From contig OY997647.1 of the NCBI GenBank assembly GCA_963921795.1, positions 59,912,061 to 59,976,060 of the forward strand: a stretch of 64,000 nucleotides of DNA, in the 5' to 3' direction. The stretch comes from Nannobrachium achirus (lineage: Eukaryota; Chordata; Actinopteri; Myctophiformes; Myctophidae). The translations under genes were made by a program, and so were the position numbers. The notes under the pieces were generated by a model. That model made no database searches. It was given only the letters and a program-made list of their open reading frames with translations, and had not been told where the DNA came from. Below are positions 9,527 through 48,296 of this stretch, piece after piece; position 1 is the first letter of the stretch, and every line of letters starts with the position of its first letter.

Positions 9527-9623
9527 GTTCTACTCATCACCTTACAGCATTGCCACCAACCGTATGATCGCACAGACCTCCATCACACCGTTCATCGCTG
9601 CTTCACCTGTCTCCACATATCAG
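9527..9623 (+). CDS. rbms3: rbms3 internal coding exon (FYSSPYS exon)
   Basis: This 97-nt exon is preceded by a pyrimidine-rich tract ending in CCCCAG and followed by GTGGGT. It starts in phase (one base completes a Gly codon), then encodes 32 residues beginning [14 protein letters not shown] and ending [10 protein letters not shown]. From memory this matches the region after the second RRM of RBMS-family (MSSP) RNA-binding proteins, and [11 protein letters not shown] fits RBMS3 better than RBMS1 or RBMS2. RBMS3 has two N-terminal RRMs, which are not in this window, and a low-complexity C-terminal half; the family binds AU-rich RNA and single-stranded DNA. The exon ends in phase 0, compatible with the exon at 30180. 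hAT elements lie 67 bp upstream and 44 bp downstream. Seen: splice sites and translation. Known: family identity. Paralogue choice is recalled, not searched. Confidence 0.88.
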
Positions 9624-9667
9624 GTGGGTGGGCGGCGTGTGTTGAGATCTGCTTCTAGACCTGCCAC

Positions 9668-30179: not shown

Positions 30180-30230
30180 GTCCAGAGTACGTCCTGGATG
30201 CCTCATCAACAATATGTTATGCAACCTACC
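30180..30230 (+). CDS. rbms3: rbms3 internal coding exon (VQSTSWMP exon)
   Basis: A 51-nt exon follows TTTCTCACAG and ends at ACC|GTAAGT. In phase 0 it encodes exactly 17 residues, VQSTSWMPHQQYVMQPT, which continue the VSTYQ end of the 9527 exon just as in RBMS3 (VQSTSWMPH..YVMQPTG). The last nine bases, CAACCTACC (Gln-Pro-Thr), and the following donor are the start of the 47-bp tandem repeat that fills the next 5.2 kb, so the true donor is the first of about 110 near-identical ones. The next RBMS3 exon (GAVITPTMDHP... in family members) was not found downstream; it lies beyond the window, in the assembly gap, or was missed. Confidence 0.88.
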
Positions 30231-33200
30231 GTAAGTCTGCACCATTCACCTATTGAACTACACATTAACAACCTACCGTAAGTCTGCACCATTCACCTAT
30301 TGAACTACACATTTACAACCTACGTAAGTCTGCACCATTCACCTATTGAACTACACATTTACAACCTACGTAAGTCTGCACCATTCACCTATTGAACTAC
30401 ACATTAACAACCTACCGTAAGTCTGTACCATTCACCTATTGAACTACACATTTACAACCTACCGTAAGTCTGTACCATTCACCTATTGAACTACACATTA
30501 ACAACCTACCGTAAGTCTGTACCATTCACCTATTGAACTACACATTTACAACCTACCGTAAGTCTGTACCATTCACCTATTGAACTACACATTAACAACC
30601 TACCGTAAGTCTGTACCATTCACCTATAGAACTACACATTAACAACCTACCGTAAGTCTGTACCATTCACCTATTGAACTACACATTAACAACCTACCGT
30701 AAGTCTGTACCATTCACCTATTGAACTACACATTAACAACCTACCGTAAGTCTGTACCATTCACCTATTGAACTACACATTAACAACCTACCGTAAGTCT
30801 GTACCATTCACCTATAGAACTACACATTAACAACCTACCGTAAGTCTGTACCATTCACCTATTGAACTACACATTAACAACCTACCGTAAGTCTGTACCA
30901 TTCACCTATTGAACTACACATTAACAACCTACCGTAAGTCTGTACCATTCACCTATTGAACTACACATTAACAACCTACCGTAAGTCTGTACCATTCACC
31001 TATTGAACTACACATTTACAACCTACCGTAAGTCTGCACCATTCACCTATTGAACTACACATTAACAACCTACCGTAAGTCTGTACCATTCACCTATTGA
31101 ACTACACATTTACAACCTACCGTAAGTCTGCACCATTCACCTATTGAACTACACATTAACAACCTACCGTAAGTCTGTACCATTCACCTATTGAACTACA
31201 CATTTACAACCTACCGTAAGTCTGTACCATTCACCTATTGAACTACACATTTACAACCTACCGTAAGTCTGTACCATTCACCTATATAGAACTACACATT
31301 TACAACCTACCGTAAGTCTGTACCATTCACCTATAGAACTACACATGTACAACCTACCGTAAGTCTGCACCATTCACCTATAGAACTACACATTAACAAC
31401 CTACCGTAAGTCTGCACCATTCACCTATTGAACTACACATTAACAACCTACAGTAATGTCTGCACCATTCACCTATTGAACTACACATTAACAACCTACC
31501 GTAAGTCTGCACCATTCATCTATTGAACTACACATTAACAACCTACCATAAGTCTGCACCATTCACCTATTGAACTACACATTAACAACCTACCGTAAGT
31601 CTGCACCATTCACCTATTGAACTACACATTAACAACCTACCATAAGTCTGCACCATTCATCTATTGAACTACACATTTACAACCTAGTGTAAGTCTGTAC
31701 CATTCACCTATTGAACTACACATTTACAACCTACCGTAAGTCTGCACCATTCACCTATTGAACTACACATTTACAACCTACCGTAAGTCTGCACCATTCA
31801 CCTATAGAACTACACATTTACAACCTACCGTAAGTCTGCACCATTCACCTATTGAACTACACATTAACAACCTACCGTAAGTCTGCACCATTCACCTATT
31901 GAACTACACATTTACAACCTAGTGTAAGTCTGTACCATTCACCTATAGAACTACACATTAACAACCTACCGTAAGTCTGTACCATTCACCTATAGAACTA
32001 CACATTAACAACCTACCGTAAGTCTGCACCATTCACCTATTGAACTACACATTAACAACCTACCGTAAGTCTGTACCATTCACCTATTGAACTACACATT
32101 TATAACCTACCATAAGTCTGCACCATTCACCTATAGAACTACACATTAACAACCTACCGTAAGTCTGTACCATTCACCTATTGAACTACACATTAACAAC
32201 CAACCGTAAGTCTGCACCATTCACCTATTGAACTACACATTAACAACCTACCGTAAGTCTGCACCATTCACCTATTGAACTACACATTTACAACCTACCG
32301 TAAGTCTGTACCATTCACCTATTGAACTACACATTTACAACCTACCGTAAGTCTGCACCATTCACCTATTGAACTACACATTTACAACATACCGTAAGTC
32401 TGTACCATTCACCTATTGAACTACACATTTACAACCTACCGTAAGTCTGCACCATTCACCTATTGAACTACACATTTACAACCTACCGTAAGTCTGCACC
32501 ATTCACCTATAGAACTACACATTAACAACCTACCGTAAGTCTGTACCATTCACCTATTGAACTACACATTAACAACCAACCGTAAGTCTGCACCATTCAC
32601 CTATTGAACTACACATTAACAACCTACCGTAAGTCTGCACCATTCACCTATTGAACTACACATTAACAACCTACCGTAAGTCTGTACCATTCACCTATTG
32701 AACTACACATTAACAACCTACCGTAAGTCTGTACCATTCACCTATTGAACTACACATTAACAACCTACCGTAAGTCTGTACCATTCACCTATAGAACTAC
32801 ACATTAACAACCTACCGTAAGTCTGTACCATTCACCTATTGAACTACACATTAACAACCTACCGTAAGTCTGTACCATTCACCTATTGAACTACACATTA
32901 ACAACCTACCGTAAGTCTGTACCATTCACCTATTGAACTACACATTAACAACCTACCGTAAGTCTGTACCATTCACCTATTGAACTACACATTTACAACC
33001 TACCGTAAGTCTGCACCATTCACCTATTGAACTACACATTAACAACCTACCGTAAGTCTGTACCATTCACCTATTGAACTACACATTTACAACCTACCGT
33101 AAGTCTGCACCATTCACCTATTGAACTACACATTAACAACCTACCGTAAGTCTGTACCATTCACCTATTGAACTACACATTTACAACCTACCGTAAGTCT

Positions 33201-35442
33201 GTACCATTCACCTATTGAACTACACATTTACAACCTACCGTAAGTCTGTACCATTCACCTATATAGAACTACACATTTACAACCTACCGTAAGTCTGTAC
33301 CATTCACCTATAGAACTACACATGTACAACCTACCGTAAGTCTGCACCATTCACCTATAGAACTACACATTAACAACCTACCGTAAGTCTGCACCATTCA
33401 CCTATTGAACTACACATTAACAACCTACAGTAATGTCTGCACCATTCACCTATTGAACTACACATTAACAACCTACCGTAAGTCTGCACCATTCATCTAT
33501 TGAACTACACATTAACAACCTACCATAAGTCTGCACCATTCACCTATTGAACTACACATTAACAACCTACCGTAAGTCTGCACCATTCACCTATTGAACT
33601 ACACATTAACAACCTACCATAAGTCTGCACCATTCATCTATTGAACTACACATTTACAACCTAGTGTAAGTCTGTACCATTCACCTATTGAACTACACAT
33701 TTACAACCTACCGTAAGTCTGCACCATTCACCTATTGAACTACACATTTACAACCTACCGTAAGTCTGCACCATTCACCTATAGAACTACACATTTACAA
33801 CCTACCGTAAGTCTGCACCATTCACCTATTGAACTACACATTAACAACCTACCGTAAGTCTGCACCATTCACCTATTGAACTACACATTTACAACCTAGT
33901 GTAAGTCTGTACCATTCACCTATAGAACTACACATTAACAACCTACCGTAAGTCTGTACCATTCACCTATAGAACTACACATTAACAACCTACCGTAAGT
34001 CTGCACCATTCACCTATTGAACTACACATTAACAACCTACCGTAAGTCTGTACCATTCACCTATTGAACTACACATTTATAACCTACCATAAGTCTGCAC
34101 CATTCACCTATAGAACTACACATTAACAACCTACCGTAAGTCTGTACCATTCACCTATTGAACTACACATTAACAACCAACCGTAAGTCTGCACCATTCA
34201 CCTATTGAACTACACATTAACAACCTACCGTAAGTCTGCACCATTCACCTATTGAACTACACATTTACAACCTACCGTAAGTCTGTACCATTCACCTATT
34301 GAACTACACATTTACAACCTACCGTAAGTCTGCACCATTCACCTATTGAACTACACATTTACAACATACCGTAAGTCTGTACCATTCACCTATTGAACTA
34401 CACATTTACAACCTACCGTAAGTCTGCACCATTCACCTATTGAACTACACATTTACAACCTACCGTAAGTCTGCACCATTCACCTATAGAACTACACATT
34501 AACAACCTACCGTAAGTCTGTACCATTCACCTATTGAACTACACATTAACAACCAACCGTAAGTCTGCACCATTCACCTATTGAACTACACATTAACAAC
34601 CTACCGTAAGTCTGCACCATTCACCTATTGAACTACACATTTACAACCTACCGTAAGTCTGCACCATTCACCTATTGAACTACACATTAACAACCTACCG
34701 TAAGTCTGTACCATTCACCTATTGAACTACACATTTACAACCTACCATAAGTCTGTACCATTCACCTATTGAACTACACATTTACAACCTACCATAAGTC
34801 TGTACCATTCACCTATTGAACTACACATTTACAACCTACCATAAGTCTGTACCATTCACCTATAGAACTACACATTTACAACCTACCATAAGTCTGCACC
34901 ATTCACCTATTGAACTACACATTAACAACCTACCGTAAGTCTGTACCATTCACCTATTGAACTACACATTAACAACCAACCGTAAGTCTGCACCATTCAC
35001 CTATTGAACTACACATTAACAACCTACCGTAAGTCTGCACCATTCACCTATTGAACTACACATTTACAACCTACCGTAAGTCTGTACCATTCACCTATTG
35101 AACTACACATTAACAACCTACCGTAAGTCTGTACCATTCACCTATTGAACTACACATTTACAACCTACCATAAGTCTGTACCATTCACCTATTGAACTAC
35201 ACATTTACAACCTACCATAAGTCTGTACCATTCACCTATTGAACTACACATTTACAACCTACCATAAGTCTGTACCATTCACCTATAGAACTACACATTT
35301 ACAACCTACCATAAGTCTGCACCATTCACCTATTGAACTACACATTTACAACCTACCATAAGTCTGTACCATTCACCTATAGAACTACACATTAACAACC
35401 TACCGTAAGTCTGTACCATTCAACTATAGAACTACACATTAA
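30222..35442 (+). repeat. 47-bp minisatellite repeating the rbms3 splice donor
   Basis: About 111 units of 47 bp. Each unit carries CAACCTACC, the last nine bases of the upstream exon, then GTAAGTCTG(C/T)ACC, TTCACCTAT(T/A)GAACTACA and CATTAA or CATTTA. The register is exact with the exon end at 30230, so the array is an expansion of the exon-intron boundary. About 15 units read CATAAGT and thus lack the donor GT. Two units near 30319 and 30366 lack one C (CCTACGTAAGT). The array ends at 35442 against a hAT element. Confidence 0.93.
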
Positions 35443-36025
35443 CAGTGGTGGACAGAGTAGTCAACCCCAGTACTCCAGTCTAAGATACTCCCCCTCAAAT
35501 CTACTCAATAACATGTGAAAGTTACTCAGTCAAATGTATTGTCGTTGTCAGGTGGAAACCTTGTATGTCCAAAACAGTTTGTTTTGTATTTATCATTTCA
35601 TCATTTAAAGTAGTGAAAACAGCCGATCTACAAGCACACAACGCCTCGCATCGTGAGGCGTTGTGTGCTTGTAGATTGGCTGTTTTCACTACTTTTGTGC
35701 GACGGCCTTGTATGATGAAGCAGGGCTTTGCTTTGCGAAAAAATTTATAAATTTGAAACTTGGTGATACGAGGTTTCTGCCCGACAGTGACGATTTACTT
35801 TGTTGGCCGCCCAGCCCCCAAAATGGAACGCAGGCCGTCATTTTATTTACATTTTTTTCCTAATGCCCGGCCTGGACCGGCCGGGAATGAACCGGTCGTT
35901 CGGGAGTTGTCCCGCTTTTCCCAATGGCCAGCACGTCCCTGCTCTTCACTACTAAGTGCAGGTATTCGAAAAGATTACAAAAAGTACAATACTCAATTAA
36001 ATGAAGTATGTTACTGTCCACCACT

Positions 36026-43373: not shown

Positions 43374-43433
43374 AGAGAGAGAGAGAGAGGAGAGAGAGAG
43401 AAGAGAGAGAGAGAAGTAAGACACAATACGGTA

Positions 43434-44497
43434 CAGTCAGGTACAGTAGAGTACAGCAAAGTACAGTAAGGTAAAGTAGAGTACAGTAGAGTACAGCAAA
43501 GTACAGTCAGGTAAAGTAGAGTACAGTAGAGTACATTAAAGTACAGTACAGTAAGGTAAAGTAGAGTACAGTAGAGTACATTAAAGTACAGTACAGTAAG
43601 GTAAAGTAAGGTACAGTAGAGTACATTAAAGTACAGTACAGTAAGGTACAGTAGAGTACATTAAAGTACAGTACAGTTAGGTACAGTAGAGTACATTAAA
43701 GTACAGTACAGTAAGGTAGTACAGTAAGATACAGTACAGCAAGGTACAGCATAGTACAGTACAATACGGTACAGCAAAGTACAGTAGAGTACAGCAAAGT
43801 ACAGTACAATACGGTACAGCAAGGTACAGTAGAGTACAGCAAAGTACAGTACAATACGGTACAGCAAGGTACAGTAGAGTACAGCAAAGTACAGTACAAT
43901 ACGGTACAGTCAGGTACAGTAGAGTAAAGCAAAGTACAGTAAGGTAAAGTAGAGTACAGTACAATACGGTACAGTCAGGTACAGTAGAGTACAGCAAAGT
44001 ACAGTACAATACGGTACAGTCAGGTACAGTAGAGTACAGCAAAGTACAGTAAGGTAAAGTAGAGTACAGTAGAGTACAGCAAAGTACAGTAAGGTAAAGT
44101 AGAGTACAGTAGAGTACATTAAAGTACAGTACAGTAAGGTAAAGTAGAGTACAGTAGAGTACATTAAAGTACAGTACAGTAAGGTAAAGTAGAGTACAGT
44201 AGAGTACATTAAAGTACAGTACAGTAAGGTATAGTAAGGTACAGTAGAGTAAGGTAAAGTAGAGTACAGTAGAGTACATTAAAGTACAGTACAGTAAGGT
44301 AAAGTAGAGTACAGTAGAGTGCATTAAAGTACAGTACAGTAAGGTATAGTAAGGTACAGTAGAGTACATTAAAGTACAGTATAGTAAGGTACAGTAGAGT
44401 ACTTTAAAGTACAGTACAGTAAGGTACAGTAGAGTACAGTAAAGTACAGTACAGTACAGTAAGGTACAGTAGAGTACAGTAAAGTACAGTACAGTAA
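43434..44497. repeat. GTACAGTA-type satellite, ~1.06 kb
   Basis: Repeated GTACAGTAGAGTACAG, GTACAGTAAGGTA and CATTAAAGTACAGTA modules in 25-60 bp higher units. It reads through as YCTLLY-type peptides on the minus strand, which are not genes. Confidence 0.9.
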
Positions 44498-45097
44498 GTG
44501 GATGGATGGATGGATGGATGGATGGATGTGGATGGATGGATGGATGGATGGATGGATGTGAATGGATGGATGTGAATGGATGGATGGATGGATGGGTGGG
44601 TGGATGGATGGATGGATGGATGTGGATGGATGGATGGATGTGGATGGACGGATGGATGGATGTGGATGGGTGGATGGATGTGGATGGATGGATGTGGATG
44701 GATGGATGGATGGATGGATGGATGGATGGATGGATGTGGATGGATGGATGGATGGATATGGATGGATGGATGGATGGATGGATGTGGATGGATGGATGGA
44801 TGGATGTGGATGGATGGATGGATGTGGATGGATGGATGTGGATGGATGGATGGATGCAGGGATGGATGGATGGATGGATGTGGATGGATGCATGTATGTG
44901 GATGGATGGATGCATGGATGGATGGATGTGGATGGATGGATGGATGGATGGATGGATGGATGGATGGATGTGGATGGATGGATGGATGTGGATGGATGGA
45001 TGTGGATGGATGGATGGATGGATGTGGATGGATGGATGGATGGATAGATGGATGTGTGTGTGGGTGGATGGATGGATGGATGGATGGATGGATGTGG
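44498..45097. repeat. (GGAT)n satellite with TGTGGATGGA variants
   Basis: About 600 bp of GGAT tetramers interrupted by TGTGGATG; it directly abuts the GTACAGTA array. Confidence 0.95.
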
Positions 45098-48096: not shown

Positions 48097-48296
48097 NNNN
48101 NNNNNNNNNNNNNNNNNNNNNNNNNNNNNNNNNNNNNNNNNNNNNNNNNNNNNNNNNNNNNNNNNNNNNNNNNNNNNNNNNNNNNNNNNNNNNNNNNNNN
48201 NNNNNNNNNNNNNNNNNNNNNNNNNNNNNNNNNNNNNNNNNNNNNNNNNNNNNNNNNNNNNNNNNNNNNNNNNNNNNNNNNNNNNNNNNNNNNNNN
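48097..48296. other. Assembly gap, 200 N
   Basis: Exactly 200 undetermined bases, likely a placeholder length. Confidence 0.99.

Follow-up and report, generated by a model that had tools for sequence, protein, structure and literature searches.

A Minisatellite of Donor-Side Exon–Intron Boundaries in an RBMS-Family Gene, Most Likely rbms3, of Nannobrachium achirus

Introduction

We describe a tandem array of 111 units in the fish Nannobrachium achirus that lies directly behind a 51-nt exon, most likely of the gene rbms3, and repeats the boundary between this exon and its intron, including the donor site. The array is contained in a stretch of 64,000 nucleotides (GenBank assembly GCA_963921795.1, contig OY997647.1, positions 59,912,061 to 59,976,060 of the forward strand), called the window here and numbered from its first base. 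Among the closest described systems, the human gene IFI6/G1P3 (6-16) reportedly carries a donor minisatellite with units of 12 bp that serve as donors behind one exon; two downstream units are said to be really used, giving different isoforms and three mRNA species. In amphioxus, minisatellite-like duplications of exon–intron boundaries, known as mirages, occur in Adh3 and in the globins BflGb6 and BflGb9 (PMC3087553). Unit lengths are 10–72 bp for Adh3 and 150–160 bp for BflGb6, two BflGb6 haplotypes have 6 and 3 units, and the Adh3 data and globin reverse transcription PCR suggest that regular splicing is unaffected (PMC3087553). Intron 18 of human ABCA7 contains a variable number tandem repeat (VNTR) with a 25-bp unit, the first two bases of which are the donor GT, and with ~12 to 427 units. 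Frameshift isoforms of ABCA7 amount to 14 ± 6% via a cryptic acceptor and to 2 ± 1% via retention of one VNTR unit, both independent of VNTR length (PMC5954066). U1 is described as occupying two donors simultaneously if they are separated by more than 40 nt, with the downstream one preferred (Eperon, cited in PMC5933811), and the same source, a paper on PAH, shows that inclusion of an exon can be enhanced by U1 bound beyond its donor.

The array described here is an exon–intron-boundary minisatellite, or mirage, a kind already known in amphioxus and in ABCA7 intron 18, and it is filed under this known kind because of the amphioxus, ABCA7, and IFI6 precedents. We found no report of this array in the literature searched, in which fish rbms3 was covered by one loosely worded query that listed 12 of 1,677 records. 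Like the mirages of amphioxus, the array is a tandem boundary duplication with exon bases in the unit and a splice signal in many but not all copies. The mirages of this cephalochordate are found at either boundary, whereas the rbms3 array is on the donor side, and its 111 copies contrast with the 3 or 6 of BflGb6. Length instability is a trait of the amphioxus mirages; for the rbms3 array, seen in one assembly, an exact internal duplication of 2,003 bp would be indirect support. In common with ABCA7, the repeat stands directly behind an exon, has the authentic donor in its first unit and a donor repeated per unit, reaches kilobase allele size, and has a unit length that is not a multiple of three, such that the use of donor 2 is a frameshift. 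The ABCA7 unit, however, is C-rich, starts at the GT, and has no exon bases, whereas the rbms3 unit measures 47 bp and includes nine; the donors are spaced at 46–49 nt, above the 40-nt limit, versus 25 nt, below it, in ABCA7. The two genes are unrelated, and the effect measured for ABCA7 is skipping of the next exon, which increases with VNTR length. The downstream donors of IFI6, with its much shorter units, reportedly keep the transcript coding, whereas downstream use in the rbms3 array destroys the frame.

Results

The exon and the start of the array comprise the following features (a slash marks the splice site):

30180–30230, + strand: 51-nt in-frame exon VQSTSWMPHQQYVMQPT, acceptor CACAG/, donor ACC/GTAAGT
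30222–35444, + strand: boundary minisatellite, 111 units (30222–35442) and two matching bases
30222–30268, + strand: unit 1, in which the real exon ends and the intron begins, CAACCTACC (30222–30230) and then GTAAGT at 30231
30231–30236, + strand: donor 1, the authentic GTAAGT
30278–30283, + strand: donor 2, including TAA at 30279–30281

Tandem Repeats Finder placed the array at 30222–35444 of the + strand, with a period of 47 bp, 111.0 copies, 96% matches, and a score of 9230. Tiling by cuts at an intronic anchor sequence gave 111 units over 30222–35442, and the 110 intervals between them consist of 104 of 47 bp and two each of 46, 48, and 49 bp. A unit is made up of the last 9 exon bases, the 6-base donor, and 32 further intron bases. 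In the printed sequence, the exon, CACAG/GTCCAGAGT...CAACCTACC/GTAAGT, passes directly into the array, and unit 1 is the exon end itself; the repeat unit thus straddles an exon–intron boundary in register with the real one. A sequence-only reading made before this analysis had recognized this register, estimated ~110 copies, and ended the array at 35442, which the tiling confirms as the last base of unit 111, with Tandem Repeats Finder extending it by two matching bases to 35444. Among the 134 merged arrays with a period of 10–100 in the 264 kb of chromosome covered, consisting of the window and flanking pieces (L-numbered), this one ranks first in length, the runner-up having 1,243 bp, and its chance origin is therefore not at issue.

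The donor GTAAGT is intact in 94 of the 111 units (the sequence-only reading had counted about 95), compared with 2 + strand occurrences in the remainder of the window (58,520 non-N bases). The splice signal is thus present in many but not all copies; the 17 nonintact units consist of 15 with ATAAGT and 2 with GTAATG. Use of donor 1 gives the 51-nt exon, and use of donors 2–4 would give exons of 98, 144, and 190 nt. As had been claimed, donor 2 adds 47 nt and the frame is lost, and an in-frame stop is met from donor 3 onward: the TAA at 30279–30281 is part of donor 2 and therefore included, in frame, for every later donor. An in-frame exon free of stops results from 1 of the 94 intact donors, namely donor 1, leaving 93 that would be nonproductive, and, as judged within the extended exon, downstream donors with translatable products, of the type attributed to IFI6, were not found among them. 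Following the general rule, leaked transcripts would be subject to nonsense-mediated decay.

Outside 30180–35460, GTAAGT was observed 2 times on the + strand and 5 times on the − strand of the window, with 16.4 and 15.2 expected under a first-order model. In 192 kb of flanking sequence (L009–L028), the observed counts were 21 (+) and 20 (−) and those expected 50 and 48. As the motif is scarce on both strands, the probable cause is base composition together with simple repeats, and not avoidance of splice sites.

We assigned the exon to a gene with tblastn searches, using a human RBMS3 sequence and then the fish database protein P0002. With the human sequence, RBMS exons were found in order on the + strand in L027 and L024, at window positions 9528 and 30180, and in L012 and L013, and the fish protein matched the same six places; the exons of one RBMS protein are thus ordered on one strand around the array. 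The exon preceding that of the array is the following:

9527–9623, + strand: preceding rbms3 exon (FYSSPYS...VSTYQ), donor CAG/GTGGGT, edges set by eye from the printed sequence

Its tblastn match (9528–9626) is 97% identical to the human RBMS3 sequence used and 100% to P0002. The best PDB match of the RRM exon is RBMS1 (E 1.2e-34), and the exon also matches Pfam RRM_1. A stitched translation of 197 residues matched 622 proteins, the best among the 120 listed being named RBMS3, from Oryzias melastigma (72%, with a query coverage of 100%). Fish RBMS3-like proteins have two kinds of tails, and the one here is, by eye, of the “...PAYSYQSK” type. Judged by these matches, the gene of the array exon is a member of the RBMS family and most likely rbms3, and the earlier assignment to rbms3 is well supported by the ordered exons and the PDB and database protein matches. 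Within the 264 kb searched, there was no match for the first RRM, the QKKR, or the GAV exon; the last of these, which in many relatives lies between PT and YMT, was sought with both the human and the fish sequence. There are stretches of Ns at 48097–48296 (200 bases), at L009:1797–4296 (2,500), and at L019:4355–10000 (5,646), the last of which ends just before the first base of the window. The 5,646- and 2,500-base stretches could hide the QKKR and GAV exons, and since the 2,500 Ns follow the array and precede the next exon that was detected, the absence of the GAV exon may reflect either a loss or the gap.

To see how relatives treat the exon, we sorted the best 120 of the 622 matching proteins by motif, a rough sort of mixed RBMS1, 2, and 3 sequences that are largely automatic gene models. 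After “..YQ”, 61 of the 120 listed enter the 51-nt exon, 14 continue with GAV and 7 with YM, 22 are without a motif, and 16 show other sequence. By these models, the exon is skipped in relatives (21 of the 120 listed, i.e. 14 GAV and 7 YM), and as it is 51 nt long, its skipping keeps the frame. After “..QPT” or the like, 39 of the listed proteins continue with GAV, of which at least one (P0047) is misfiled, 3 with YMT, 7 with VS, and 5 with other sequence, 66 being not scored. VS is the reading of an unspliced GTNAGN donor, and the 7 of 120 listed relatives that run through the matching donor suggest that such run-through is annotated in other vertebrates.

The run-through models (PT or PA and then VS) are P0017, P0019, P0043, P0045, P0046, P0052, and P0071, all RBMS proteins of other vertebrates. 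Six of the seven stop within 45 residues and possibly represent a recurrent short isoform.

The order of the units revealed two exact block repeats:

30662–32664, + strand: 2,003-bp exact duplication, first copy, offset 1,977 bp or 42 units
32639–34641, + strand: 2,003-bp exact duplication, second copy
34663–34923, + strand: second block repeat, 261 bp, exactly equal to 35086–35346, offset 423 bp or 9 units

In the larger of these, units 11–51 recur as units 53–93, without a mismatch over the 2,003 bp. Exact block repeats imply either growth of the array through the duplication of blocks or a block that the assembly joined twice, and the 2,003-bp duplication accordingly points to a recent expansion or an assembly fault. 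The dinucleotide CA opens each unit and also follows the last one (35443–35444), which is a weak hint of an origin by slippage at two bases.

Extra conservation of the donor was looked for among the 111 units and none was found, the splice columns being no less variable than others. Variable columns numbered 6 of 15 in the exon-plus-donor part versus 5 of 32 in the rest of the intron part (P = 0.14, Fisher test) and 1 of 6 in the donor core alone versus 10 of 41 elsewhere (P = 1.0). These tests are weak since the units are not independent: one set of 41 exactly duplicates a second set of 41, and with the second copy removed, 57 of 70 donors are intact. The largest loss is that of donor position +1, changed from G to A in 15 of the 111 units, and as this position falls in the single CpG of the unit, the change would fit decay by methylation. 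The losses include a distal cluster:

34738–35395, + strand: distal region that holds 9 of the 17 lost donors, with ATAAGT in units 97–100 and 106–110

Pairing with U1 was predicted using unmodified letters for the U1 5′ end. The array donor forms only six predicted pairs, +1 to +6, with −5.7 kcal/mol, compared with −2.5 for ATAAGT, −12.5 for the donor of the preceding exon, and −14.0 for the full consensus. Locally, the donors are not predicted to be more accessible, with a median of 0.030 against 0.067 across all positions, and neither AATAAA nor ATTAAA occurs inside the array. YCAY motifs are denser in the array (0.045 per base, two per unit) than in the window upstream of the exon (0.017), a rise that we take as chance.

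In the 1.66-Gb assembly, the exact 26-base core of the unit has 78 matches, each within the array, and 0 on the other strand, in a search by exact pattern that misses diverged copies; by this pattern, the unit is locus specific. Fuzzy remnants of the unit were not found outside the array in the 264 kb. An origin from a mobile satellite or transposon was rejected on these two grounds, the occurrence of the exact core at one locus only arguing that the array is not a mobile satellite. A different repeat lies beside it:

35541–35800, + strand: dispersed repeat beside the 3′ end of the array, search stopped at 35800

This repeat has 39 other places with 92–94% identity among the 40 scored of 4,636 candidates, with matches beginning at 35532–35542. 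As its copies begin ~90–100 bp past the array, the dispersed repeat does not explain the array. Within it, an 89-base near-palindrome (35607–35695) is 92% identical to its own reverse complement, and the other listed copies also show opposite-strand matches of this stretch.

Discussion

By analogy with the described cases, it is likely that splicing mostly uses donor 1 with a small, nonproductive leak and that its donors are not the reason why the array was retained. In this lineage, a short duplication spanning the donor would have arisen and then expanded through unequal exchange or slippage during replication, and most of the donor copies would be bystanders. Splicing would occur mainly at donor 1 because it is directly behind the conserved exon, and a leak of a few percent to donor 2 or the next few would cause a frameshift or a stop and end in nonsense-mediated decay. 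The array would be tolerated for two reasons, the degradation of leaked products and the retention of the frame when the 51-nt exon is skipped. Under exon definition, donors distant from an exon are used poorly. A small leak is favored for this reason and in view of the persistence of the array in a gene with good conservation of those exons that were seen.

Several observations weigh against a bystander role. The dominance of donor 1 is itself drawn by analogy, and the spacing of 46–49 nt exceeds the 40-nt limit beyond which the downstream donor is reportedly preferred. In ABCA7, skipping of the next exon rises with VNTR length, and the alternative transcripts together exceed the canonical one in 90% of BA10 brain samples (PMC5954066). 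Within the array, units 1–26 are all intact, giving 26 donors in a row, whereas units 97–111 keep 6 of 15, and intact proximal and decayed distal donors could also point to selection close to the exon. Homogeneity is a general property of the proximal units, however, and local homogenization explains the intact proximal donors as well.

An alternative is that the array attenuates the gene: co-occupied downstream donors would often win, exon-including transcripts would be degraded, and array length would set the rbms3 output. The exons of 98, 144, and 190 nt formed with donors 2–4 would be of an ordinary size, as lengths of 98–190 nt are, and 93 of the 94 donors are nonproductive; the intervals of 46–49 bp are above the 40 nt at which co-occupancy is described as favoring the downstream donor (Eperon, cited in PMC5933811). 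We nevertheless consider attenuation unlikely, given that retention of a single unit in ABCA7 is given as ~2% and independent of VNTR length (PMC5954066), that the units show no donor-specific conservation, and that selection should act against a burden of this kind if neither a paralogue nor skipping of the exon compensates for it. The copied donors might instead form a platform on which array-bound U1 raises the inclusion of the upstream cassette exon or blocks premature polyadenylation in a long intron. U1 downstream of a natural donor enhances exon definition (PMC5933811), U1 suppresses intronic polyadenylation (PMC3826338), the array lacks both polyadenylation motifs, and of the 120 listed relatives, 21 are without the exon and 7 run through the matching donor. 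But pairing limited to +1 to +6 (−5.7 versus −14.0 kcal/mol), accessibility not above the average (median 0.030 versus 0.067), and donors that decay without visible constraint make a platform highly unlikely. The sequence-only reading had proposed a role as donor decoy or U1 platform, and while its anatomy, register, and frame consequences stand, the evidence on the proposed role points both ways: the lack of donor-specific conservation, the modest U1 pairing, and the ordinary donor kept in two precedents speak against it, and the spacing of more than 40 nt and the capacity of downstream U1 to enhance inclusion speak for it.

That the array is real but inflated by the assembly, with the 2,003-bp block joined twice and a true allele of ~69 units, seems to us rather unlikely. 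The block is identical without a mismatch, and there are N stretches nearby, in the window (200), in L009 (2,500), and in L019 (5,646). Recent block duplication is normal for minisatellites, however, and the array has a second, shorter block repeat at a 9-unit offset. Haplotypes of amphioxus also differ in unit number (PMC3087553). We hold it highly doubtful that the array is a length-tunable switch in which about ninety co-loadable U1 sites change the inclusion of the rbms3 exon or divert transcripts to decay, with a length varying between individuals. The idea follows from a spacing just above the co-occupancy distance, by which the array would load many U1, and if true, a single locus would sample the output of splicing through its number of copies.

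The locus is a natural test bed for how the spliceosome chooses one donor among dozens of nearly identical ones in series. It is informative because ABCA7 predicts a small leak and Eperon a strong one. The precedents found have few copies (3 or 6 in an amphioxus globin) or units shorter than 40 nt (25 nt in ABCA7), with Adh3 units of up to 72 bp, and the rbms3 locus has 26 consecutive intact donors at a spacing of 46–49 nt behind one exon that relatives also skip. The array suggests that fish, too, give rise to intronic VNTRs that touch a donor, which in ABCA7 are linked to the risk of disease in humans.

Other Features of the Window

Two unrelated, abutting arrays occupy 43423–45094, a GTACAGTA-rich array with periods of 10, 35, and 45 bp that extends to 44498 and a TGGA array that starts at 44499. 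The long open frames over this region look like repeat artifacts rather than genes.

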